A stretch of 44,862 nt of DNA from an uncultured Bacteroidales bacterium (GTDB lineage: Bacteria; Bacteroidota; Bacteroidia; Bacteroidales; FEN-979). Under the pieces are notes generated by a model. The model had not been told where the DNA came from. It did no database searches and saw nothing but the letters and a program-made list of their open reading frames with translations. Position numbers and translations under genes: made by a program. Of the stretch, positions 19,131-44,826 are shown one piece after another. The stretch's first letter is position 1. The number at the start of each line of letters is the position of its first letter. Where the stretch lies: NCBI GenBank assembly GCA_903885595.1, contig CAISJJ010000297.1, positions 1-44,862 of the forward strand. The letters run 5' to 3'.

Positions 19131-20250
19131 ACCTCCCAATCACATATCCCGCCTGCATAAACTTGCTCACCTCCGTTACAAAACTCAGAATGATGTCTCC
19201 TGTTTCCAATTTTTCCTCTTTCCTGATTTTGTCGAGGCACAGCAGGGCCATCGGGGGGCCGGTATACCCCATGGATGCCATTTTTGAATAGAGCGTTTCT
19301 CTTGGGATTCCCAATGCTGCACATTCATCCATAATCAATTCCGAGATATGTTTTGATGGAAAATTAACCTGGAAGAACCTGATCTTTTTCAGGTCGACCG
19401 GATATTTGGCCACCATCCGTCTAAGTCCTTTGAGAAAAACAGATCCATCCGGTTCATGAAAATTTTCACGCAACTCCTCCTGGAACATCTGTGCCAGGTG
19501 ATGATAACCAAGTTCAAACTCCTCTCTGGGATTCATATAATAAGCCGGTCGTTTATTGCCCATGGCCGAAGGTTTGTTCCCCCCGATCGATTCCATGTAG
19601 TTATAGTCCATGAACAATCCATCGGAGCGGGTTTCAGCAGCTTGTAACACAATCGCTGCTGCTCCATCGCTCAGGAAATAACGTAAAAACAGCTCCTCCT
19701 TTTTAACCAGTGGCTGGTTGTAATATTCAGCGACCAGTTCTGACGAAGATATCCCGGATGAAACGACCAGTGCGGTCCTGTAACGTCCGTTGCGGATCAG
19801 GTCGGCGCCCAGGAGCAGCGCCTTGTAAGCTGAGGTACAGTTTGCATGTACCGATAATTCGGCGCATTGTTCAATCCCCAGCGCCTCCTGTATGCGGACG
19901 CTGGCTGTTGGCATCTGGTCCTGGTGGGCGCTGCCATAAACGATCAGGTCAATATCCGCAGGTGCCAGCCCGGCATCTTCAATAGCTTCCCTTGCAGCTT
20001 TTACCGACATGGTCACATTGTCTTCGGTGAATTTGCGGGTCACCGGGTCCATCGCGAAGTGATAGTATTCAACTTCCAACAGTTCCTTCATGAGGAGCCT
20101 GATCCGCTGAAGCCATTTCCTGATTTTCTCCGGTGCCTCTGTAAGTTCTCCGAGGAAATGATCAACCTGGTCGGCCGGAATGGGTTCCCCAGGCAAAAAG
20201 GAGCCACTGCCGGTCACCCTGACAAATATATCGTTGTTATGTTTTTGCAT
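19126..20250 (-). CDS. KAS III-like (thiolase fold) condensing enzyme with altered active site
   Basis: A 374-residue FabH-like protein. The nucleophile is C138 in 'VHANCTSAY'. The FabH active-site His of 'PHQAN' corresponds to F293 in 'RFFQVNFPSK', and the Asn of 'GNTS' corresponds to Tyr in 'SMGYTG' (326-331), so only the Cys of the Cys-His-Asn triad is recognisable. Such a protein could do a non-decarboxylative condensation, an acyl transfer, or need another residue for catalysis. It overlaps the crotonase-fold gene upstream by 14 bp, so they are translationally coupled. It probably primes or modifies chains on the pathway ACP. Confidence 0.8.
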   Translation of the reverse strand: MQKHNNDIFVRVTGSGSFLPGEPIPADQVDHFLGELTEAPEKIRKWLQRIRLLMKELLEVEYYHFAMDPVTRKFTEDNVTMSVKAAREAIEDAGLAPADIDLIVYGSAHQDQMPTASVRIQEALGIEQCAELSVHANCTSAYKALLLGADLIRNGRYRTALVVSSGISSSELVAEYYNQPLVKKEELFLRYFLSDGAAAIVLQAAETRSDGLFMDYNYMESIGGNKPSAMGNKRPAYYMNPREEFELGYHHLAQMFQEELRENFHEPDGSVFLKGLRRMVAKYPVDLKKIRFFQVNFPSKHISELIMDECAALGIPRETLYSKMASMGYTGPPMALLCLDKIRKEEKLETGDIILSFVTEVSKFMQAGYVIGRW

Positions 20251-27413: not shown

Positions 27414-30400
27414 ATGAAAAATTTACCAAATGTTCTCATTGTTGATGATAGCGAAGAGAATATTTTTTTCCTTGAAAGTGTCATAAAAAAAATTAAAGTT
27501 AATCTTATCAAGGCCTTTTCGGGTTTAGAAGCATTGGAGAAAAGCAAAGACCTGGAACTTGCACTTGCCATCATCGATGTGCGAATGCCTGAAATGAATG
27601 GTTATGAGCTGGCAATGAGGCTTAATGAAATAAGGCAGGAGAATAAGGTTCCTATCATTTTTCTTACTGCAAGCCATGTTACTGAAGTTCAGGTATTCAA
27701 AGGATATGGCTACGGAGCTGTTGATTACCTGGTCAAACCAGTGAACAATAACATCCTGTTGTGTAAAATTAATGTGTTCCTCGACCTCTCCATGCAAAAA
27801 CAGACCATTGCAAGGGATGCTGCTTTACTTAAAAAATCGGCCGACGAACTCATTAAAGCAAATGAAGCACTTGTAAAAAGTGAGAAAAAATACCGGAGTT
27901 ATATCGACAATGCACCGGACGGGGTTTTTGTGACTGATGAAAAGGGAAAGTACATTGAAGTAAATGAGGCAGCCTGTGCCATTACAGGATATTCGAAGGA
28001 TGAACTGTTGAATATGTCGGTCTCAGACATACTTCCCGATGAATCGGTTGAAGATGGCCTTGCCCACTTCAGAGCAGATGGTACAATTGGAAAATCAAAA
28101 GCAGATCTGTTGTTCAAACATAAAAACAGGAAGACCCGGTGGTGGGCAGTCGAAGCCGTAAAGCTATCGGAAACACGGTATCTTGGATTTACAAAAGACA
28201 TCACCCTTCGGATAGAAATGGAGGAGGCCATCCGGAGGCATCAGTTTGAACTTGAATCGCAGAACGATGAACTATCCATTGCTATTGTCGAAGCGAAAGT
28301 TGCTTCCGAAAAATATGCTGAACTTTACAATTTTGCCCCTTCGGGTTATTTTACGCTTTCGACCGATTATAAAATTCTGGATTTGAACCTGGGCGGAGCA
28401 CATTTATTGGGGAAAGAGCGATCGCGCATTATTGACAGCCATTTTGGCCTTTTTGTATCAATTGATACGCTGCCTGTCTTTCACGCTTTTTTACTCGATG
28501 TTTTTAAAAAAGATTCAAAAGAATTCTGTGAAGTAATGCTCGAAACAGGCGGTATTCAGCGCAAATGGGTACACATGGAAGGTGTCACCATCGGTAATGG
28601 GGCCCAATGCCTTTTAAATGTTGTGGATATAACCGACCGTAAGAATGCTGAAGAGCGTCTTAAGCAAACATCCACCCGCCTGGCTCTGGCAACACGGGCA
28701 GGAGGAGTTGGCGTTTGGGAGCTTGATTTTTTCAATAATAAAATGACATGGGATGATCGCATGTTCGAACTGTATGGTATTGATGAAAAGGATTTCACCC
28801 GCAACATTGAAGCCTGGTATGCATGCATTCATCCCGATGACCTGATTCGATGCAATGCTGAGATCGAGATGGCGAAGTGCGGTGAAAAGGAATTTGATAC
28901 AGAGTTCCGGGTATGCCACACCAATGGAAGCGTGCACAATATCAGGGCAATGGCCATCATTTTGCATGATAGCTCAGGCAGTCCGCAAAAGGCAATAGGT
29001 ACAAACTGGGATATTACTAAACAAAAGCAGCTGGAGGACAAACTCAAGTCAAGTGAAGTGAACTTCCGCACATTTTTCGAGACCATGGGCGACATGATCA
29101 TGGTCGGTAACAGCCAGGGAGAGGTTTTTTATGTAAATACCTCCTTATGCCACAAACTTGGCTATAAAACTGAAGACTTTCAGAGAATGAACCTTTTGGA
29201 AATGATTCAGGCAGAAAGACGGATAGAAGCTGAACAGATTTTTATAGAAATGTCGACAGGGAAAAGGAACTCATGTAATTTACCGCTTGTGAGAAAAGAC
29301 GGATCGCTCGTACCTGTTGAAATTCGTGTATGGTATGGCAAGTGGGACGGGAAAGACTGCATTTTTGGCATAGCCAAGGACCTCACTTCGGAGCAAGAGG
29401 CCCTGCTGAAATTTAATAAAATATTTTATGGTAATCCCGCTCTTATGGCCATGAGTACATTCCCGGAAGCTGTATTTACCGATGTGAATGATGCTTATAT
29501 TACCAAAACAGGATATACCAGAGAAGAACTCATCGGAAAAATAAGCGGAGACTTAAATCTTTCACTTCAACCTGAAAAACAAAAAATAGCTTTTAAAGAG
29601 TTAGAAAAAAAAGGGTTTATCCATAATCTTGAGTTAACCATAAAAACCAAATCAGGAGCGACACTTGACGGGCTTTTTTCCGGCGAAATTGTTGAAAACC
29701 AGGGAAAGAAGTTTTTTTTATCGGTGATGGTTGATATTACAGCCCGTAAAAAGGCTGAGGAAGCCCTCAGGAAGAGCGAATCAAACCTTGCCGAAGCCCA
29801 GCGGATCGCGCATATGGGTAGTTGGGAATGGGATATGATTTCGGGTACGGTAATTTGGTCAGAAGAGATGTACCGCCTTTTTGACATGGAACGAAAGAAC
29901 AAAGTCATCAAGCCTGAATCGATCATTAAGAATCTCCATCCCGATGATGTGGGGATATTCTCGGAAAGTATGAAAAGTAATTTATCCGATGGCAAGTCAA
30001 CCTCCCTTGAATACCGTGTCGTCCATAAAGATGGTTCGATTCACCACCTCTTTGCTGAAGGCAGGGTTGAATTTGATGATGATGGCAAACCAATCAGGAG
30101 CATTGGAACGGTTCAGGACATTACTGAACGTAAGATTGCAGAGCAACAAATGAAAATAGGAGAAGAAAAATATAAAACGATGTTAAATGCATCCCCCGAT
30201 GGAATTCTTTTGGTTGATATGAATGGAATCGTAACAGAGGCCTCTGAAATTGGGCTGGAATTGCTGGGCGCCGAATCAAGAAACGACCTGGTGAGTAAAG
30301 ACATTTTCAGGTTCATTCCATCAGATGAAAAATATACGCTAAAAGAGATCATTAACAGAACTATGAATGAAGGCCTGGCACAAAATGTAGGAATGCAAAT

Positions 30401-31259
30401 CAGAAAGAGAAACCGTACATTATTTGCAGGGGAAACCAGTGTCACCCTGATTCAGAATCCTGATGGCACGCCCTCATCATTTATGATCATTATTCGTGAT
30501 ATTTCGCAACGTAAAAAGATGGAGACCAAACAGATGCATGCCGACAGAATGGCCAACCTGGGGGAGATGGCCTCAGGAATCGCACATGAAATCAACCAGC
30601 CACTGAATATAATCTCCATGGTAATGGATAAAATTTTATTTGAGTCAGTCAAAGCTGATTCGATCGATCTGGAATTCCTGAAAAACAAATCAAATAAAAT
30701 TTTTGACAATATAACCCGGATACGGAATATTATTGATCACATCAGGGCCTTTTCAAGAAGCCATGATGATTTTGTTTTGACAGCTTTTGATATCAATGCA
30801 AGCATCGAAAGCGCAACTTCGATGATTTCAGAACAATTCAAACACTTGGGCATAAGTTTGTTAATTCAGCTTGATAATAAAATTCCTTCGATTTGCGGCA
30901 ATACCTACAAGTTTGAACAGGTTATCATTAACCTCCTGGTTAATGCCAAAGATGCAGTGCTTGAAAAGAAAGGCAAACAGGATGCAGATTTTGAGATGGT
31001 TGTTGGGATAAAATCCTACAAGGAGAATCAAATTTTAGTGGTTGAAGTAACAGATAATGGTATTGGTATTGGCAATGAGGATATTAATAATGTCATTCTT
31101 CCCTTTTACACCACCAAGGATGAAGGTAAGGGAACAGGCCTCGGATTATCAATCTGCTATCAGATCATTAAGGAAATGGGAGGAAACATTGAGATTATAA
31201 GCGACTATTCTCATGGTACAACGATCAAACTGCTATTGGACATTACTGAGAAAAAATGA
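27414..31259 (+). CDS. Multi-PAS NtrB-type histidine kinase: REC-PAS x7-HisKA-HATPase
   Basis: A 1281-residue soluble sensor. The N-terminal receiver has D55 in 'IIDVRMP'. About seven PAS domains follow (roughly 160-285, 300-410, 420-545, 548-660, 665-775, 785-905 and 915-1035), with the third and sixth of the PAS-3 type ('GVWELDF', 'GSWEWDM'). The kinase core is NtrB-like: 'GIAHEINQPLN' with H1058, N box 'NLLVNAKDAV', 'DNGIGI' and 'GTGLGLSI'. Its last ~360 residues (PAS7 plus kinase core) are a close match to the next, broken gene, showing a tandem duplication. NtrB-type cores usually pair with sigma-54 activators, and one is encoded two genes downstream. Confidence 0.9.
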   Translation: MKNLPNVLIVDDSEENIFFLESVIKKIKVNLIKAFSGLEALEKSKDLELALAIIDVRMPEMNGYELAMRLNEIRQENKVPIIFLTASHVTEVQVFKGYGYGAVDYLVKPVNNNILLCKINVFLDLSMQKQTIARDAALLKKSADELIKANEALVKSEKKYRSYIDNAPDGVFVTDEKGKYIEVNEAACAITGYSKDELLNMSVSDILPDESVEDGLAHFRADGTIGKSKADLLFKHKNRKTRWWAVEAVKLSETRYLGFTKDITLRIEMEEAIRRHQFELESQNDELSIAIVEAKVASEKYAELYNFAPSGYFTLSTDYKILDLNLGGAHLLGKERSRIIDSHFGLFVSIDTLPVFHAFLLDVFKKDSKEFCEVMLETGGIQRKWVHMEGVTIGNGAQCLLNVVDITDRKNAEERLKQTSTRLALATRAGGVGVWELDFFNNKMTWDDRMFELYGIDEKDFTRNIEAWYACIHPDDLIRCNAEIEMAKCGEKEFDTEFRVCHTNGSVHNIRAMAIILHDSSGSPQKAIGTNWDITKQKQLEDKLKSSEVNFRTFFETMGDMIMVGNSQGEVFYVNTSLCHKLGYKTEDFQRMNLLEMIQAERRIEAEQIFIEMSTGKRNSCNLPLVRKDGSLVPVEIRVWYGKWDGKDCIFGIAKDLTSEQEALLKFNKIFYGNPALMAMSTFPEAVFTDVNDAYITKTGYTREELIGKISGDLNLSLQPEKQKIAFKELEKKGFIHNLELTIKTKSGATLDGLFSGEIVENQGKKFFLSVMVDITARKKAEEALRKSESNLAEAQRIAHMGSWEWDMISGTVIWSEEMYRLFDMERKNKVIKPESIIKNLHPDDVGIFSESMKSNLSDGKSTSLEYRVVHKDGSIHHLFAEGRVEFDDDGKPIRSIGTVQDITERKIAEQQMKIGEEKYKTMLNASPDGILLVDMNGIVTEASEIGLELLGAESRNDLVSKDIFRFIPSDEKYTLKEIINRTMNEGLAQNVGMQIRKRNRTLFAGETSVTLIQNPDGTPSSFMIIIRDISQRKKMETKQMHADRMANLGEMASGIAHEINQPLNIISMVMDKILFESVKADSIDLEFLKNKSNKIFDNITRIRNIIDHIRAFSRSHDDFVLTAFDINASIESATSMISEQFKHLGISLLIQLDNKIPSICGNTYKFEQVIINLLVNAKDAVLEKKGKQDADFEMVVGIKSYKENQILVVEVTDNGIGIGNEDINNVILPFYTTKDEGKGTGLGLSICYQIIKEMGGNIEIISDYSHGTTIKLLLDITEKK

Positions 31260-31309: not shown

Positions 31310-33299
31310 ATGAATAAACCGCATAACAGACAGGAAGAGAAAATAACGCATAAACAGGCTAAGGAAGGGCTGAAAAGGAGACCAGAGAAGAAACAATCAC
31401 AACGTTCTGAAGCAGATTTGATGAGGATCGTCCATGCAATGGAGATACAGCTGATGGAATTGAAAGCCCAGAATGATGATCTCCGGCAAGCCGAACTGTC
31501 AGCCAGGTTAAACAAGAAATACCTGGAAGCTGGCCGTGAGGTTCTTCAGATACTGAACGAATTTGGCGATCCGCGGGATTCAATACAAAGGGTGCTCGAT
31601 GTTTTGAAGAAGCGGACCGGTTTCGATGCGGTTGGCATTCGGCTCCAAAAGGACGATGACTTCCCCTATTATGCCCAGGATGGTTTTTCAGGTGACTTCT
31701 TACTGACAGAAAATACGCTGGCTGAATATTCTGAAGACGGCCAGGTATGTCGTAATAAAGATGGTAATGTTAGTCTGGAATGTACCTGTGGACTGGTTCT
31801 TTCCGGTAAGACCGATCCTGAAAATCCGCTTTTTACCGCAGGGGGAAGTGCCTGGACGAACGATTCATTACCCTTCCTCGATATCCTGCCTGGCGACGAT
31901 CCCCGTAATCGTCCACGCAACAATTGCATTCATAAGGGATATACATCGGTTGCTTTGGTCCCCATACGGAATAAGGAAAAAATTATCGGACTGATCCAGT
32001 TAAACGACCATCGCAAAGACTGTTTTGACCTGCATACAATTGAATTGCTCGAAGGAATTGCCTCGCACATCGGGGAGGCGTTTATGCGCAAACAGGCAGA
32101 AGATGATCTGAAGGAAAGCAAAGAGCTGCTCTCATTATATATAATTCATTCACCAATTTATTCCTACCGTAAGCTGGCAGAACAGGCAATGAGGATAAGT
32201 GATGAAAAGTACAGAACAATGCTTAATTCCTCACCGGATGGAATTTTATTGATTAACATGAAGGGTATCATAACCGAGGTATCTGAAATCGGAATGGAAT
32301 TGTTTGGTGTCGATACCAAGGATGACCTTGCGGGGAATGATCTTTTTCAATTTGTTCCGCCTGATGATCAAAATACTTTAAAAGAGATCATTGAAAAGAC
32401 AATGAACGAAGGGCTGGCGCAAAATATCGGGTTAAAATTCAGGAAGAAAAACCAGTCTGTTTTTGCCGGTGAAACCAGCGCAACCCTCATACAGGGCCCC
32501 GATGGGGTTCCTGTCGCTTTTATGATCATCATCCGTGATATTTCGCAGCGGAAAAAATTAGAGACTAAGCAGGGGCATGCCGACCGTATGGCCAACCTGG
32601 GCGAGATGGCCTCGGGTATCGCACATGAAATAAACCAGCCATTGAATATCATTTCGATGGTAATGGATAAAATATTGTTTGAATCAGCCAAAACCGAAAC
32701 AATCGACATCGATTTTCTAAGGAATAAATCGGATAAAATATTCGAAAACATAACACGGATAAGGAACATCATTGATCAGATCAGGGCATTTTCGAGAAGT
32801 CATGATGATTACGTTCTGTCTGCCTTCAACATAAACACGAGTATTGGCAATGCCACTTCAATGATTGCCGAACAATTCAAGCACCTTGGAATCAAGCTGA
32901 TGCTGCAGCTCGAAAAAAAAAATTCCCCGTTGTTCGGTAATTCAATTAAATTTGAACAGGTAATCGTAAATCTGCTGCTCAATGCCAAAGATGCGGTAAT
33001 TGACAACAGAACCAAACGGGAAGGAAATAATTTCGATGGTTGTTGGGATCAGGTCTTACCTGGAACATAACCATATTATTGTTGAGGTCACTGATAACGG
33101 GATTGGCATAAGCAATAACGATATAAATAATATTATGCTTCCGTTTTATACAACCAAGGATGAAGGAAAGGGGACAGGTCTCGGATTATCGATCTGTTAT
33201 CAGATAATCAAAGAGATGAATGGCTCAATCGAAATAACGAGCGAACCGGCTCACGGGACAAAAATCAAATTGGTTATGGATATTGAAAATCTAAAGTAA
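31310..33299 (+). pseudogene. Frameshifted NtrB-type kinase: coiled coil-GAF-PAS-HisKA-HATPase
   Basis: The first frame (31310-33070) encodes a Lys/Glu-rich coiled coil (1-70), a GAF-type domain (about 75-265), a PAS domain (about 300-420) and the kinase core with H439 in 'GIAHEINQPLN', up to the N box 'NLLLNAKDAV'. The frame then breaks near 33000-33035; the remainder of the ATP-binding domain ('DNGIGI', 'GTGLGLSI') continues in the frame one base further on, to the stop at 33299. One extra base explains this. At about 279-291, 'HSPIYSY' runs straight into 'RKLAEQ', which look like the start and the end of one PAS domain whose body has been deleted. A sequencing error could explain the frameshift but not the PAS loss. 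The sigma-54 activator gene starts 3 bp later. Confidence 0.85.
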
Positions 33300-33301
33300 C
33301 A

Positions 33302-34690
33302 ATGTCAGTACACGATAAAATTAAAATTCTGATCCTTGATGATGAAAAGCAATTCACAGAAGAATTAAGTGGGTTCTTTCAGGGATCTGATTATGAATCA
33401 TTTGAGGCAAACACAGAAAAGGATGGACGAAAAATTCTGACGAGCCATGAAATCGACCTGCTGATTCTCGATGTCAGGTTGCCTGGCGTGAACGGTCTTG
33501 ATATACTCAAGGATGTAAAGGTTCAGTATCCGCGGATGGAGGTCATCATCATTTCAGCGCATGGCGACATGGACACGGTAATCAAGGCTATGCGGCTCGG
33601 GGCATTCGATTATTTGCGCAAACCGTTCAGATATATCGACATCCAGATTGCAATCGAACGTACCCAGAAGTACCTTCAGATGCACCGGCGGCTGAAACAG
33701 ATGGAGGAGCGGAATTCGCTGATCTCAAAAAATCTTGAAGAAAAAATAGACCGGCAGTTTATTGGTGTAAGTCCGCAGATTCTGGAGGTTTTCGAACAAG
33801 CTATTACCGCTGCAAATTACCCCGATTCCAATGTGCTTATTACCGGTGAAAGTGGCACAGGAAAGGAAAATATTGCCAGGATCATTCACTATTCAAGCTT
33901 GAGAAAAGATCATGTTTTTTGTGCCGTTAACAGCAGTGCGATCACTGAATCACTGCTGGAGAGTGAATTCTTTGGCCATAAAAAAGGTTCATTCACGGGC
34001 GCAATCAGCGACAAAATGGGATTCTTCGAAGTTTGTCACAAGGGCACTTTGTTTCTTGATGAGATTGCTGACATGCCTTTCAACCTTCAGGCAAAGATCC
34101 TCCGTGCAACCGAAGAAAAGGTGATCACCAGGGTGGGCGATACAAAACAGATTCAAACCGACTTTCGCATTGTTTCTGCAACAAACCATGATGTTCACAA
34201 ACAGGTGGAAAAAAAGAAATTCAGGCTTGACCTGCTTCACCGGCTCAACACCCTGCATATTCATATTCCTTCGCTCAGGGAAAGGCCCGAAGATATCAAA
34301 CCCCTGCTGGTCCATTTTGTAGATGTTTATTCTACGAAATTCAATAAACCAAATGTCCGCATCTCACGCGAGGTTTTTGACACACTCTTAAAATATTCTT
34401 TTCCAGGTAATGTCAGGGAATTACGAAATATGACCGAGAGAGCGATAATCCTGTGCAAAGGCAATCTGCTTGGCATAAATGATTTTCCTGTAAAAATAGA
34501 GAAACCTGCCGCAGCGGATAAGGATGCTGATTCTGTGAACCTGAAGCTGAACGAACTCAACCTGATTCAGAAAGCGCTCGCCATGGCAAAATTTAATCAG
34601 CAAGCCGCAGCTGATGCACTTGGTATTCACCGCGATGCCTTAAGCAGAAAGATGAAGAAGTATGATATCAGGGTTGAGTCGGATGAATAA
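33302..34690 (+). CDS. NtrC-family sigma-54-dependent response regulator
   Basis: A 462-residue activator. Receiver 1-125 with D57 in 'LILDVRLPG'; AAA+ domain about 150-385 with Walker A GESGTGKE (182-189), the sigma-54 contact loop GSFTGA (229-234, a common form of GAFTGA) and Walker B 'GTLFLDEIAD'; and a C-terminal Fis-type helix-turn-helix ('QQAAADALGIHRDALSRKMKKY'-like, near 437-458). All elements needed to activate sigma-54 polymerase are present. It starts 3 bp after the broken kinase gene and is the last gene before gvpA, whose upstream region has a sigma-54 promoter. Direct control of the gas vesicle operon is the simplest reading. Confidence 0.92.
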   Translation: MSVHDKIKILILDDEKQFTEELSGFFQGSDYESFEANTEKDGRKILTSHEIDLLILDVRLPGVNGLDILKDVKVQYPRMEVIIISAHGDMDTVIKAMRLGAFDYLRKPFRYIDIQIAIERTQKYLQMHRRLKQMEERNSLISKNLEEKIDRQFIGVSPQILEVFEQAITAANYPDSNVLITGESGTGKENIARIIHYSSLRKDHVFCAVNSSAITESLLESEFFGHKKGSFTGAISDKMGFFEVCHKGTLFLDEIADMPFNLQAKILRATEEKVITRVGDTKQIQTDFRIVSATNHDVHKQVEKKKFRLDLLHRLNTLHIHIPSLRERPEDIKPLLVHFVDVYSTKFNKPNVRISREVFDTLLKYSFPGNVRELRNMTERAIILCKGNLLGINDFPVKIEKPAAADKDADSVNLKLNELNLIQKALAMAKFNQQAAADALGIHRDALSRKMKKYDIRVESDE

Positions 34691-35123
34691 CAGGGTTAAC
34701 TGACTAAATTCAAAGAGATACGATCAGTTTGGGAGCATTTCGCGCCATAGGTGCGAAACATTGGTAGACCGATGAGGATTGGGAGCATTTCGCGCCATAG
34801 GTGCGAAACATTGGTAGACCGATGAGGTTTAGGAGCATTTCGCGCCATAGGTGCGAAATTATTTTCCGGAGATTCAAATCCAAAATATGCTATGCGCCTA
34901 CGGCGCGCTGAGATAGGAGTGGGGGTATGCGGGCTACCAGGATTTGGCTCCTACGGAGTCGGAATGGATTAATGAAAACAATTACCTCAAACAGGAAGGA
35001 TCTTGTTAAACACGGAGTATGGTGTGTCAAAGTTTTTAACAGTGTCGGTGTTTATCAATACGCGTTTTCACGTAAGTACGCGATTTTATTGTTGAATAAC
35101 ATGAACCACCTCCGGGTCTGGCA
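34691..35123. repeat. Gene-free stretch with 50-bp tandem repeat and further hairpins
   Basis: Units at 34731-34780 and 34781-34830 are 50 bp long and nearly identical; a third, partial unit runs from 34831 to about 34860. Each contains the hairpin TTTCGCgCCataGGtGCGAAA. Further hairpins follow: GCGCCtacGGCGC near 34905 and CTCCtacGGAG near 34949. This CTACGG/CATAGG hairpin style resembles dispersed repeats of Bacteroidota genomes. A 66-codon frame at 34927-35127 has no family features and is not called. No other gene is seen before gvpA. Confidence 0.75.
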
Positions 35124-35124
35124 T

Positions 35125-35182
35125 TGAAAATCCGATTTTCAAAAAAAAATTACAATTTTTTTATCTTTCATTTTCAGATAAA
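35125..35182. promoter_or_regulatory. Two inverted repeats, candidate activator-binding sites upstream of gvpA
   Basis: TGAAAATCcGATTTTCA (35125-35141) is a perfect palindrome with 8-bp arms. TTTATCT-N9-AGATAAA (35160-35182) is a second one with 7-bp arms. They lie about 117 and 79 bp upstream of the transcript start predicted from the sigma-54 promoter, the usual distance for NtrC-type enhancer sites. The first could alternatively be part of a weak terminator, since A and T runs follow it. Confidence 0.45.
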
Positions 35183-35223
35183 TAGCTGTCCGGATTTGAT
35201 ATTTTTATTTTGTCTGTCATTTC

Positions 35224-35239
35224 TGGCCCACCCTTTGCA
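35224..35239 (+). promoter_or_regulatory. Sigma-54 (-24/-12) promoter of gvpA
   Basis: TGGCCCACCCTTTGCA matches the consensus TGGCACrNNNNTTGCW at all defined positions but one (C for A at the fifth base), with correct GG-to-GC spacing. It predicts a start near 35250 and a leader of about 75 nt to the gvpA ATG at 35326. An NtrC-type activator gene ends 534 bp upstream. Confidence 0.75.
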
Positions 35240-35310
35240 ATACTTAACATCACAACAAAAAAAGAGGTAAGCCGTCCCTCATGTAAAGCACGGTTTTTAT
35301 CAATCAAATA

Positions 35311-35316
35311 TAGGAG
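35311..35316 (+). promoter_or_regulatory. Strong ribosome binding site of gvpA
   Basis: TAGGAG lies 9 bp before the ATG, followed by an A-rich spacer. Almost the same arrangement recurs at 36295-36300 before the coiled-coil gene, while most genes in the window lack such a site. High translation of gvpA is expected for the main structural protein. Confidence 0.65.
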
Positions 35317-35325
35317 ATTAAAAAA

Positions 35326-35532
35326 ATGGCAGTAGAAAAGACAATCGGATCATCCAGCCTCGTAGAAGTAATCGACCGTATCCTTGACAAAGGTGTTGTA
35401 GTTGATGCATGGGTAAGAGTATCATTGGTAGGTATCGAACTGCTTGCAATTGAAGCAAGGGTAGTCGTAGCCTCAGTTGAAACATACCTGAAGTATGCTG
35501 AAGCAATCGGATTAACTGCTAAAGCCGCATAA
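35326..35532 (+). CDS. gvpA: Gas vesicle major structural protein GvpA
   Basis: A 68-residue protein with the typical GvpA sequence: '[23 protein letters not shown]', then '[31 protein letters not shown]', split here by a single stretch of conserved residues. GvpA monomers form the ribbed, gas-permeable protein shell. The length is normal (about 70). It is first in the cluster, behind a sigma-54 promoter and a strong ribosome binding site. A weak hairpin (GCTTTgctcctgAAAGC, about 35580-35596) in the 126-bp gap after it might reduce read-through, which would fit the need for far more GvpA than accessory proteins. Confidence 0.97.
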
Positions 35533-35658
35533 GGCACATTGCAGTTAAGCAGTTATTCTTGCTAAAACATCCTTGCAGGCTTTGCTCCTGAAAGCATGAT
35601 TTACCAGGAATTTCTTTTTCTCCAGCAATTTCTCCAATCAATAATTCAATAAATCAAT

Positions 35659-36267
35659 ATGAACACCCATCCAGAATTTAATATCGATGGTTTTTTCGGT
35701 AATATTATAACCTCCTACGAATCCCGGATCCAAAAAATTCAGACAGCCTTCCAGTCGTCAGAAAATATTACTGAATCTTCCTACTCACTTTTTGATAATG
35801 TTCATCAATCCTTAAATGAACTTAAAAAGGAGCGTGACATTTTGAATTCCAGGCTTTGCGAGAATCTCGCGAAAAATGGATCCCTACGTAAAAAAGATTA
35901 CAACACAATGATGTCGGGCATTCTCGCAGCGCTCGATGAAAAAGAAAAAGAGGCTGAAAACCAGTTTTTGAACTTTATTGAAGCCCAGAAAGTGACAGCC
36001 CAATCATTGAAAAACAGTCTGCTGGGTATAAACGATATTACCTCTCAGGACAACAGCGAAAAAATTTCCATTATAAAAGAGGAACTTTCCCGTATTTCCA
36101 AAATACAGGAAATGAGAAAGGAAACAGTCATGAAGACATTTCTGGATTTTCAGCAAATGCATAACAGAATGATGACATGCCTTGAAGACCTGTTAAACAA
36201 GGGCGAGCACATTTTGGTCAGGGATATTAAAAAAGTGAAGGATCAGATCATCAATCAAAATAATTAA
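35659..36267 (+). CDS. Coiled-coil gas vesicle cluster protein of unknown function
   Basis: A 202-residue, almost wholly helical, charged protein with no signal peptide or membrane segment. Residues about 53-95 ('LKKERDILNSRL', 'LAKNGSLRKKDYNTMMSGI') resemble the repeat unit of the next gene ('LARGEKERLNTFNELMAGI'), so the two proteins share a module. I do not recognise a named Gvp family. Its place between gvpA and the 390-residue repeat protein suggests a shell-associated, size-control or assembly role, which is inference only. Confidence 0.75.
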   Translation: MNTHPEFNIDGFFGNIITSYESRIQKIQTAFQSSENITESSYSLFDNVHQSLNELKKERDILNSRLCENLAKNGSLRKKDYNTMMSGILAALDEKEKEAENQFLNFIEAQKVTAQSLKNSLLGINDITSQDNSEKISIIKEELSRISKIQEMRKETVMKTFLDFQQMHNRMMTCLEDLLNKGEHILVRDIKKVKDQIINQNN

Positions 36268-43785: not shown

Positions 43786-44826
43786 ATGGCACCAAAAGGG
43801 ATCTACATTTACGGAGTTGTACCGAATTTTTACGGAACAACACACTTTCAATCATTTGAACCTTCAGGGGTGTATGCTATAACGTATCAGAATATATCTG
43901 CCATTGTTTCTGACAGGGATTCAGTACACCTTGATTTGCTGGACAGGGAATCGTTGGGATATTTGCTGGTTCATCATCAGAAAACGATTGAAGAACTTCA
44001 GCGTAAAGGGTTTAACATGCTTATTCCCATGAAACTTGGAACGATTGCAGCATCAAGGGAAGAGGTAATTAAAATACTGTCGAACGGCCATGATTTAATA
44101 ATTGACACCCTTACAAAAATAGAATACCTTACGGAAATTGATCTTGTTGTCATGTGGGCAAACTTTGGAGAGGTACTAAAGAGCATCGCCGAAGATGTTA
44201 AAATCAGGGAAATGAAGGAAGACCTGCTGAAAAACAAGGAGAGTATCACGAAAGTCGACCAGGCTGCGATCGGGATGTTGATCCAGGAAAAAATTAATGC
44301 TAAAAACAAAGCAATTGAAATAACAATACTGGATGCCCTGGCATCTTTTGGTATCGATATCAAGATGCATCAGGTGATGAATGACGAGATGGTGACCAAT
44401 TCGGCCTTTCTCATTAACAGGAACAAACAGGAAAAGTTTGAGCAGGCGATTGGCAGGCTTGATGAGGAATTCAACGGAACCCTCAATTTTAAACTGGTAG
44501 GGCCCTTGCCCTGTTACAGCTTTTTCACCCTTGAAGTTGACCTGCTGAACCCTGAAAAGGTGGAGCAGGCAAGAAAAGAACTCGGTCTGAAGGAAAAGAC
44601 GACAGAGAGTGAAATTAAAAAGGCATACCTTGAAAAGGCGAAATTATTTCATCCTGACAACAGCCAGGAGAGCGATGATACAGAAAAATTTAACAAGATT
44701 CAGAATGCCTACCATACCCTGCTGGATTATGCAGCAGCAGCAAAACAATCAGTAAAGGAAGAGTTAATTTTCCTTGCAACAGAAAAAGTGAAAGAAAATC
44801 TCACCCTTGTAAAAATAAAGGAATAA
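43786..44826 (+). CDS. GvpF/GvpL family protein fused to a C-terminal J domain
   Basis: A 346-residue protein. Residues about 5-257 are a GvpF/L domain: 'GIYIYGVVPN' at the start, 'AIVSDRD', 'HHQKTIEEL', 'MKLGT', 'VGPLPCYSFFTLEVD' at the end. Residues about 262-320 are a J domain: helix I-like 'ARKELGLKEKTTESEIKKAYLE', the HPD motif at 289-291 in 'KLFHPDNSQ', and helix III 'EKFNKIQNAYHTLLDY'. The HPD is the residue set that triggers Hsp70 ATPase. GvpF/L proteins bind GvpA and other Gvps during assembly, so this fusion should bring DnaK to gas vesicle subunits. The tail (320-346) is helical. It is followed after 1 bp by a second GvpF/L start. Confidence 0.9.
   Translation: MAPKGIYIYGVVPNFYGTTHFQSFEPSGVYAITYQNISAIVSDRDSVHLDLLDRESLGYLLVHHQKTIEELQRKGFNMLIPMKLGTIAASREEVIKILSNGHDLIIDTLTKIEYLTEIDLVVMWANFGEVLKSIAEDVKIREMKEDLLKNKESITKVDQAAIGMLIQEKINAKNKAIEITILDALASFGIDIKMHQVMNDEMVTNSAFLINRNKQEKFEQAIGRLDEEFNGTLNFKLVGPLPCYSFFTLEVDLLNPEKVEQARKELGLKEKTTESEIKKAYLEKAKLFHPDNSQESDDTEKFNKIQNAYHTLLDYAAAAKQSVKEELIFLATEKVKENLTLVKIKE

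Follow-up and report, generated by a model that had tools for sequence, protein, structure and literature searches.

The gas vesicle genes of an uncultured Bacteroidales bacterium raise the question of how gvpA is switched on and what its untranslated leader may contribute once it has been transcribed. They lie on a contig analyzed over its full length of 44,862 nt (CAISJJ010000297.1; hereafter the window), on which gvpA occupies positions 35326–35532 of the plus strand and encodes a gas vesicle structural protein of 68 aa (PF00741). Pfam places GvpA-family domains at 35326 and 39630 and a GvpL/GvpF domain at 43786, so that the window holds a gvpA operon, that is, a GvpA protein with gvp neighbors. 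The GvpL/GvpF protein encoded at 43786–44826 (domain at residues 5–247) carries a DnaJ domain at its C-terminus (266–314). In the draft genome of this organism the window corresponds to contig C297; a second gvpA locus is found on C109, and more GvpA-family matches lie on C297 and C527. Listed matches to the leader pattern described below include uncultured Bacteroidales and Bacteroidetes, many with lake-derived isolate names, and the host group is predicted to consist of lake bacteria that float by means of gas vesicles. Two features of the gvpA upstream region stand somewhat apart. The gap between the upstream activator gene (see below) and gvpA contains, at 34729–34878, three 50-nt tandem repeats with the hairpin TTTCGCGCCATAGGTGCGAAA, the last of them terminator-like. 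Shine–Dalgarno (SD) sequences are reportedly of rare use in Bacteroidota, and gvpA of the window has a strong SD-like sequence, TAGGAG at 35311–35316 (plus strand), that is conserved in the alignment and atypical for this phylum.

The original prediction had placed a sigma-54 promoter, TGGCCCACCCTTTGCA, at 35224–35239 of the plus strand, matching the −24/−12 consensus at all defined bases but one, and the site indeed differs from TGGCAC-N5-TTGCW at a single position. Only one other site in the window comes as close (19481–19496, minus strand), and sites with up to two mismatches number 20 against 25 expected by chance; the motif match alone is therefore weak, and it is conservation that carries the promoter call. 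When up to 600 bp upstream of 21 orthologous copies were scanned with a sigma-54 score, whose base frequencies were assumed rather than fitted, the best-scoring site lay 78–87 nt 5′ of the ATG in 18, and 12 of these 18 sites were better than shuffles at p ≤0.05. The sites of G015, G002, and G018 score only 6.0, two of the three being tied with another site. The orthologs keep the GG at −24 and the GC at −12 at fixed spacing, with GT, GG, or GA replacing GC in some relatives. It had been set beforehand that the promoter should be kept wherever the activator gene adjoins gvpA, and there it is conserved in both sequence and place. Sigma-54 itself is encoded in the genome (rpoN; PF04552, E 3.5e-48). 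Judged by this comparison, the −24/−12 site at 35224–35239 is real and conserved; since sigma-54 transcripts usually start 11–12 nt after the −12 element, the gvpA transcript is predicted to begin at about 35250.

A broader sample comprised 106 distinct leaders, identical sequences having been merged: 50 from Bacteroidota, 24 of the Chlorobia type, 11 from families f87/f108, 16 cyanobacterial, three gammaproteobacterial, and two from Rossellomorea. The groups were assigned from record titles and kinship data. Copies with less than 130 nt of upstream sequence, with N, with no near ATG, or with less than 60% identity (including G096) were left out. A site scoring above the 99% shuffle level occurs in the zone 70–95 nt from the ATG in 29 of the 50 Bacteroidota and 12 of the 24 Chlorobia-type copies, the latter sites mostly reading TGGCAC-N5-ATGC, as well as in two of 11 f87/f108 copies (a wider scan of f87 found sites at 97–100 nt in two further copies) and one of three gammaproteobacterial copies; L261, from Gammaproteobacteria, has a perfect −24/−12 site. 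No such site is present in that zone in the 16 cyanobacterial or the two Rossellomorea copies. Among the remaining 21 Bacteroidota copies, four have sites scoring 5.7–6.0 at the usual place, six have sites scoring 8.7–12.7 at 143–154 nt from the ATG, scores that carry no null of their own, and eight are second tandem gvpA copies with no promoter of their own. The last three, G055, G034, and G068, have no −24/−12 site at the usual place, and G068 has one 41 nt from the ATG. First or single Bacteroidota copies thus have a −24/−12 site in 39 of 42 cases, four of them weak, or in 23 of 26, again four weak, if only copies found by gvpA searches are counted. The six loci with the more distant site at 143–154 nt (L239, L250, L175, L148, L065, and L193) have a second element between promoter and pseudoknot, in the region some 60–150 nt 5′ of gvpA, mostly a hairpin of the AACCC/GGGTT type with the loop GGCACAT and perhaps a degenerate first leader.

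Sigma-54 promoters direct attention to upstream activator sites, and two inverted repeats had been proposed for that role. Both exist, TTGAAAATCCGATTTTCAA at 35124–35142 and TTATCT/AGATAA at 35161–35181, but by eye neither is kept in 18 aligned upstream regions and they were rejected as enhancers for this reason. The best candidate enhancer site falls just outside the span of the original prediction (35125–35325): a conserved inverted repeat, TTTTCACGTAAGTACGCGATT, at 35065–35085 of the plus strand, which is recommended by its matches in the genus and by its spacing. The repeat, TTTTCRCGT-N-ACGCGAT, is picked up by a tolerant pattern in 10 of the 21 upstream regions at 252–265 nt 5′ of the ATG. 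The exact pattern has seven matches in six of the 19 genomes of the genus comparison (10 with gvpA and nine without), and its reversed control has none. All seven start 156–162 bp 5′ of the best −24/−12-like site (scores 6.0 to 14.8) in the next 500 bp (226 bp for L278), and L282 has a second site on its other side, at 157 bp with a score of 10.1; looser copies of the repeat start 159 bp (G000:C247) and 164 bp (G008:C58) 5′ of such a site. Four of the seven exact repeats stand before gvpA or, where a contig ends, before its leader; the other three (L280, L281, and L282) do not. We take 35065–35085 as the candidate contact site of the activator, and the pairs of repeat and −24/−12 site look like the marks of a small regulon. 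At L280 (G014:C410), L281 (G002:C155), and L282 (G013:C5), the repeat and a −24/−12 site at 156–158 bp are found away from gvpA. The ORFs that follow L280 and L281 encode 1326 and 988 aa, respectively, and have signal-peptide-like starts; in the 988-aa product a Por secretion tail is matched weakly, under the cut-off. Between the candidate enhancer and the promoter there is also an A-tract/T-tract palindrome, AAAAAAATTACAATTTTTTT, at 35143–35162 (plus strand); AT-rich palindromes occur near this place in several relatives, and it may possibly act as a DNA bend.

The gene upstream of gvpA at 33302–34690 (plus strand) encodes an NtrC-type response regulator with receiver, sigma-54 AAA+, AAA lid, and Fis-type helix-turn-helix domains, all over Pfam cut-offs. 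An intact sigma-54 activator core had been claimed for it and is borne out by the presence of GESGTGKE and GSFTGA, the latter also in all 10 relatives tested. Among 16 loci for which upstream sequence extends beyond 1.5 kb, the activator gene lies 5′ of gvpA in 14; at the two exceptions, the second gvpA of the same genome (C109) and G013, promoter and leader are present with no activator directly upstream. It is kept in eight of eight further Bacteroidota loci at 69–81% identity, and no activator was found near gvpA in the four Chlorobium-type, two f87, and one gammaproteobacterial loci examined. Kinase sequence precedes the activator in 13 of the 14 and seven of the eight loci, the contig ending there in L040 and L294. 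In the window, the nearest sensor kinase (GAF-PAS-HisKA, then HATPase; 31310–33299, plus strand) is split between two frames, 31310–33070 and 33000–33299. Its H-box and ATPase motifs lie within a single frame in at least nine of the 10 relatives examined (L034 being the tenth), and the frameshift of the window may be due to assembly or to mutation. An intact PAS-rich hybrid kinase (receiver, PAS repeats, HisKA-like, HATPase) is encoded at 27414–31259 (plus strand), with HisKA at 26.4 bits against a Pfam cut-off of 26.9. Of the two-component, sigma-54 route fed by PAS-rich kinases that had been suggested, the sigma-54 part is upheld by the conserved promoter with an activator beside gvpA and by rpoN; the kinase input is qualified by the split frame of the nearest kinase, an intact one being encoded further upstream.

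The protein of 33302–34690 is likely to be the regulator of gvpA. Activator homologs of 66–79% identity are encoded away from gvpA in the genus, also in gvp-free genomes, so that the acting activator is assigned by position. One such homolog might bind the repeat at 35065–35085 in place of the adjacent protein: one of 66% identity is encoded at G000:C528, and the C109 gvpA copy has the repeat with no activator directly upstream. The synteny of activator and gvpA in most loci speaks against this, and we regard it as fairly unlikely. An activator 79% identical is encoded at G001:C133, in a genome with no GvpA-family match found.

Within the span of the original prediction, about 60 nt 5′ of gvpA and just 3′ of the predicted transcript start, lies an element missed there. 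Comparison of leaders reveals a putative H-type pseudoknot at 35264–35293 (plus strand), with no relevant Rfam match, in which GAGG (35264–35267) pairs with CCUC (35277–35280) to form P1 and CCGU (35272–35275) pairs with ACGG (35290–35293) to form the crossing helix P2. Between promoter and gvpA, each of the 18 aligned regions contains AGAGGTAA-N-CCGTCCCTC-N-AGCACGG or a sequence near it. The GAGG follows the −12 C by 14–25 nt in Bacteroidota (median 17, n = 33) and by 12–14 nt in the Chlorobia type (n = 12), and precedes the ATG by 52–66 nt. Given where sigma-54 transcripts usually start, this spacing would put the beginning of the pseudoknot within about 0–14 nt of the mRNA 5′ end. Its 5′ half is present in 48 of the 50 Bacteroidota leaders, a frequency that is overstated because many of the loci (L062–L180) were found through the leader pattern itself; among the 28 Bacteroidota copies found by gvpA searches, 26 have the leader, and gvpA stands without it in G034, of the same family as the host, and in G068. 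In the Chlorobia type, 12 of the 24 leaders carry the element, which in L200 includes a G-U pair, and these 12 are precisely the copies that have a promoter. The 12 copies without it are mostly second tandem copies, together with copies of G174 and G127, which have a plain hairpin at the leader place, and one copy from another family. G174 (L290) has several gvpA copies in a row, of which one contains three in-frame stops and some have the plain hairpin replacing the pseudoknot. In Bacteroidota, all eight second tandem copies, which come after the previous gvpA and are promoterless, keep the leader.

Defined without reference to sequence, the pseudoknot core is found in 47 of the 50 Bacteroidota leaders versus 25 of 1120 window stretches and none of 46 control stretches further upstream. 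It occurs in 11 of the 24 Chlorobia-type copies and in five of 23 Chlorobia-type control stretches, all five of which coincide with the real leader of the tandem copy before or look like one. The idea that it is a general feature of gvpA was rejected, as the generic core is absent from the 16 cyanobacterial, three gammaproteobacterial, and two Rossellomorea copies; a looser search found some pseudoknot at p ≤0.05 in three of the 16 cyanobacterial copies. A covariance model (R1), built from leaders that include some genomes of the genus, was matched 15 times within the genus; every one of the 10 gvpA-bearing genomes has a match and the nine gvpA-free genomes have none, with 150 of 995–1997 first-look candidates scored per genome. 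Of these matches, G008:C58 precedes an apparent truncated gvpA, and those of G004:C434 and G012:C59 are placed where the contig ends or nearly so, with no gvpA start visible for G004:C434. Another, G000:C247 (L313), precedes a 210-aa ORF that starts MKKLCVFVVYLISLLTLIGC and has no Pfam match, and its enhancer-like repeat, promoter, and leader stand at the spacings usual for gvpA (159, 17, and 63 nt). The leader pattern has, among the matches listed, 126 sites in 124 loci, 37 of them with the 3′ arm ACGG; of these listed ACGG sites, 34 precede gvpA, L059 is at a contig end, and L064 and L174 look like chance. L107, also among the matches listed, is a gvpA leader site with the 3′ arm AUGG, and the other listed matches, without gvpA, were set aside as looking like chance.

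Whether the element acts as RNA was addressed through base-pair compensation. In an alignment of 46 leaders (A1), 89.1% of cells pair versus 87.8% in shuffles, 32 of 500 shuffles being as high, and slid pairings reach at most 56.4%. Two-sided changes are seen at five of the 10 pairs, a count reached by none of 500 shuffles, and the covariation score of 0.105 is equaled by four of 500. Compensated arms include CCAU/AUGG in L107, CCGC/GCGG in L206, and GAAGG/CCUUC in L239. These modest counts reflect a core that hardly varies and rows many of which were selected for it: most letters of the core are set by the leader pattern, so that variation is hidden and pairing inflated. Three rows (L148b, L186, and G055) are misaligned and were counted against the structure. 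Families f87/f108, of the same class as Chlorobiaceae, vary far more. There GGCGG pairs in P2 with CCGCC, or in one case with CCGUC, and P1 has 4–12 bp, differs in sequence between most genomes, and pairs at p <0.03 in nine of 11 leaders, in a test that is anchored on P2 and so examines P1 alone; a scan without the anchor gives p ≤0.05 in 10 of the 11. Compensatory changes argue for a conserved structured RNA modestly in Bacteroidota and the Chlorobia type, and strongly for P1 of f87/f108. Folded as a nested structure, the window leader is no stabler than its shuffles (z −0.28; ViennaRNA folds exclude pseudoknots), and of the leaders taken singly just 13 of 50 from Bacteroidota and seven of 24 of the Chlorobia type do better than shuffles at p 0.05, so that the structure rests on comparison. 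Rfam searches of 34690–35700 of the window (E up to 10) and of six related loci (E up to 1) returned sub-threshold matches only, unrelated by name.

Taken as a whole, these observations are probably best explained by a gvpA operon driven by sigma-54 and an NtrC-type protein, with a 5′ pseudoknot that acts as RNA. The promoter would remain shut until the adjacent PAS-rich kinases phosphorylate the activator, which then binds the enhancer TTTTCRCGT-N-ACGCGATT, some 160 bp ahead of the −24 box, and contacts the promoter through DNA looping. Transcription would start shortly 5′ of the small H-type pseudoknot, which at the RNA level may shield the 5′ end of gvpA mRNA from decay, help ribosome loading, or both, making very large amounts of GvpA possible. 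Comparison establishes the conservation and spacing of promoter, repeat, and leader, the kinase–activator synteny, and the base-pair compensation; we infer the transcript start, the contact between activator and site, the signal, and what the pseudoknot does. For the leader, the lack of overlap with the SD-like sequence, of a terminator, and of strong SD pairing in nested folds, together with its 5′ place and the bulk protein encoded, favors 5′-end protection or better ribosome loading; set against all possible leader functions, 5′-end protection has about an even chance. Translational repression through SD pairing, unseen in nested folds, was rejected, as was a start-stop mini-ORF (ATG TAA in the window), the ATG being missing in many relatives. 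In mRNA stabilizers of the ompA type, a stem-loop occupies the 5′ end of a highly abundant transcript, at a distance from the start codon; the gvpA leader is similarly placed on a bulk mRNA and differs in being a pseudoknot instead of a hairpin, with a putative stabilizing effect.

The preQ1-I and SAM-II riboswitches are H-type pseudoknots with two crossed short helices and an A-rich third loop, and a minimal ligand-sensing riboswitch of such a shape could be envisaged for the gvpA leader, which has the H-type order and an A-rich third loop, and whose unpaired A's in the first and third loops are near-invariant in the 46-row set of Bacteroidota and Chlorobia-type leaders. However, no expression platform is visible, 17 nt separating the pseudoknot from the SD-like sequence in the window, with neither a terminator nor strong SD pairing in nested folds; f87/f108 keep neither the loop letters nor P1, a plain hairpin replaces the pseudoknot in copies from two Chlorobia-type genomes, no Rfam riboswitch family was matched, and the mRNA, which encodes a structural protein, carries the element close to its predicted 5′ end. 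A riboswitch is unlikely, and less likely than the two favored functions. Quite improbable is a reading of the interleaved repeats as DNA to which a repressor or some other protein binds. Their place as inverted repeats just 3′ of the promoter would fit this, and in Serratia SmaR represses the gvpA1 promoter (PMC4982088), but the arms change with compensation, P1 of f87/f108 differs between most genomes, and the element also stands, at the same distance from the ATG, before second tandem copies that have no promoter. Transcription from a primary sigma factor promoter of the usual Bacteroidota kind (−33 TTG / −7 TAnnTTTG), with the −24/−12 resemblance fortuitous, is very improbable and was rejected, for although TTTG is present in most Bacteroidota sites and G055, with no −24/−12 site at the usual place, carries TAACTTTG, the TA of TAnnTTTG occurs at none of the 18 ortholog sites, the −24 GGC retains its fixed spacing, most Chlorobia-type sites read TGGCAC-N5-ATGC, and the enhancer repeat holds its distance to −24/−12.

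The promoter and activator part of this sigma-54 scheme is already known in kind. In Serratia sp. ATCC 39006, transcription of gvpA1 requires the NtrC-like GvrA, which is encoded among the gas vesicle genes, and a consensus sigma-54 site lies 5′ of the start mapped by 5′-RACE (PMC4982088). The Bacteroidales locus likewise has an NtrC-type gene beside gvpA and a sigma-54-type site upstream. Serratia, however, is a gammaproteobacterium in which gvrA belongs to a separate operon of the cluster and SmaR represses the promoter, and the account of gvpA1 control given there describes no structured leader (PMC4982088); the Bacteroidales locus has a kinase gene directly 5′ of the activator and a pseudoknot leader after the promoter. 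For p-gvpA of Halobacterium salinarum, structure in the transcript is said by a review to help stabilize gvpA mRNA (PMC4390858), a likeness for which no homology is claimed, that system being archaeal, with a 20-nt 5′-UTR and activation by GvpE. RNA-level control of the gvpA operon has also been proposed in Calothrix PCC 7601 from an antisense RNA over gvpABC (PMC6202907); as presented there it is a separate antisense transcript rather than a structure in the leader, and the 16 cyanobacterial leaders compared here have no pseudoknot core. No recognizable account of such a leader, or of such control in Bacteroidota, was found among the open-access papers searched, and the pseudoknot is apparently an undescribed RNA element before a protein needed in bulk.

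On balance, we lean toward seeing in it a new and deeply conserved class of cis-acting RNA of Bacteroidota and Chlorobia that would prolong mRNA life or aid translation of a mass-produced organelle protein, as part of a portable cassette of enhancer, sigma-54 promoter, and 5′-terminal pseudoknot that has also been copied before the 210-aa ORF of G000:C247. The pseudoknot is small and might be useful in gas-vesicle expression constructs, while the near-fixed enhancer–promoter spacing of 156–162 bp provides a sharp handle on the rest of the regulon. Flotation control by sigma-54 and NtrC-type activators, known from Serratia, would hold for Bacteroidota as well and, judging by promoter sequence, for Chlorobia, which suggests a widespread means of gating a costly organelle.
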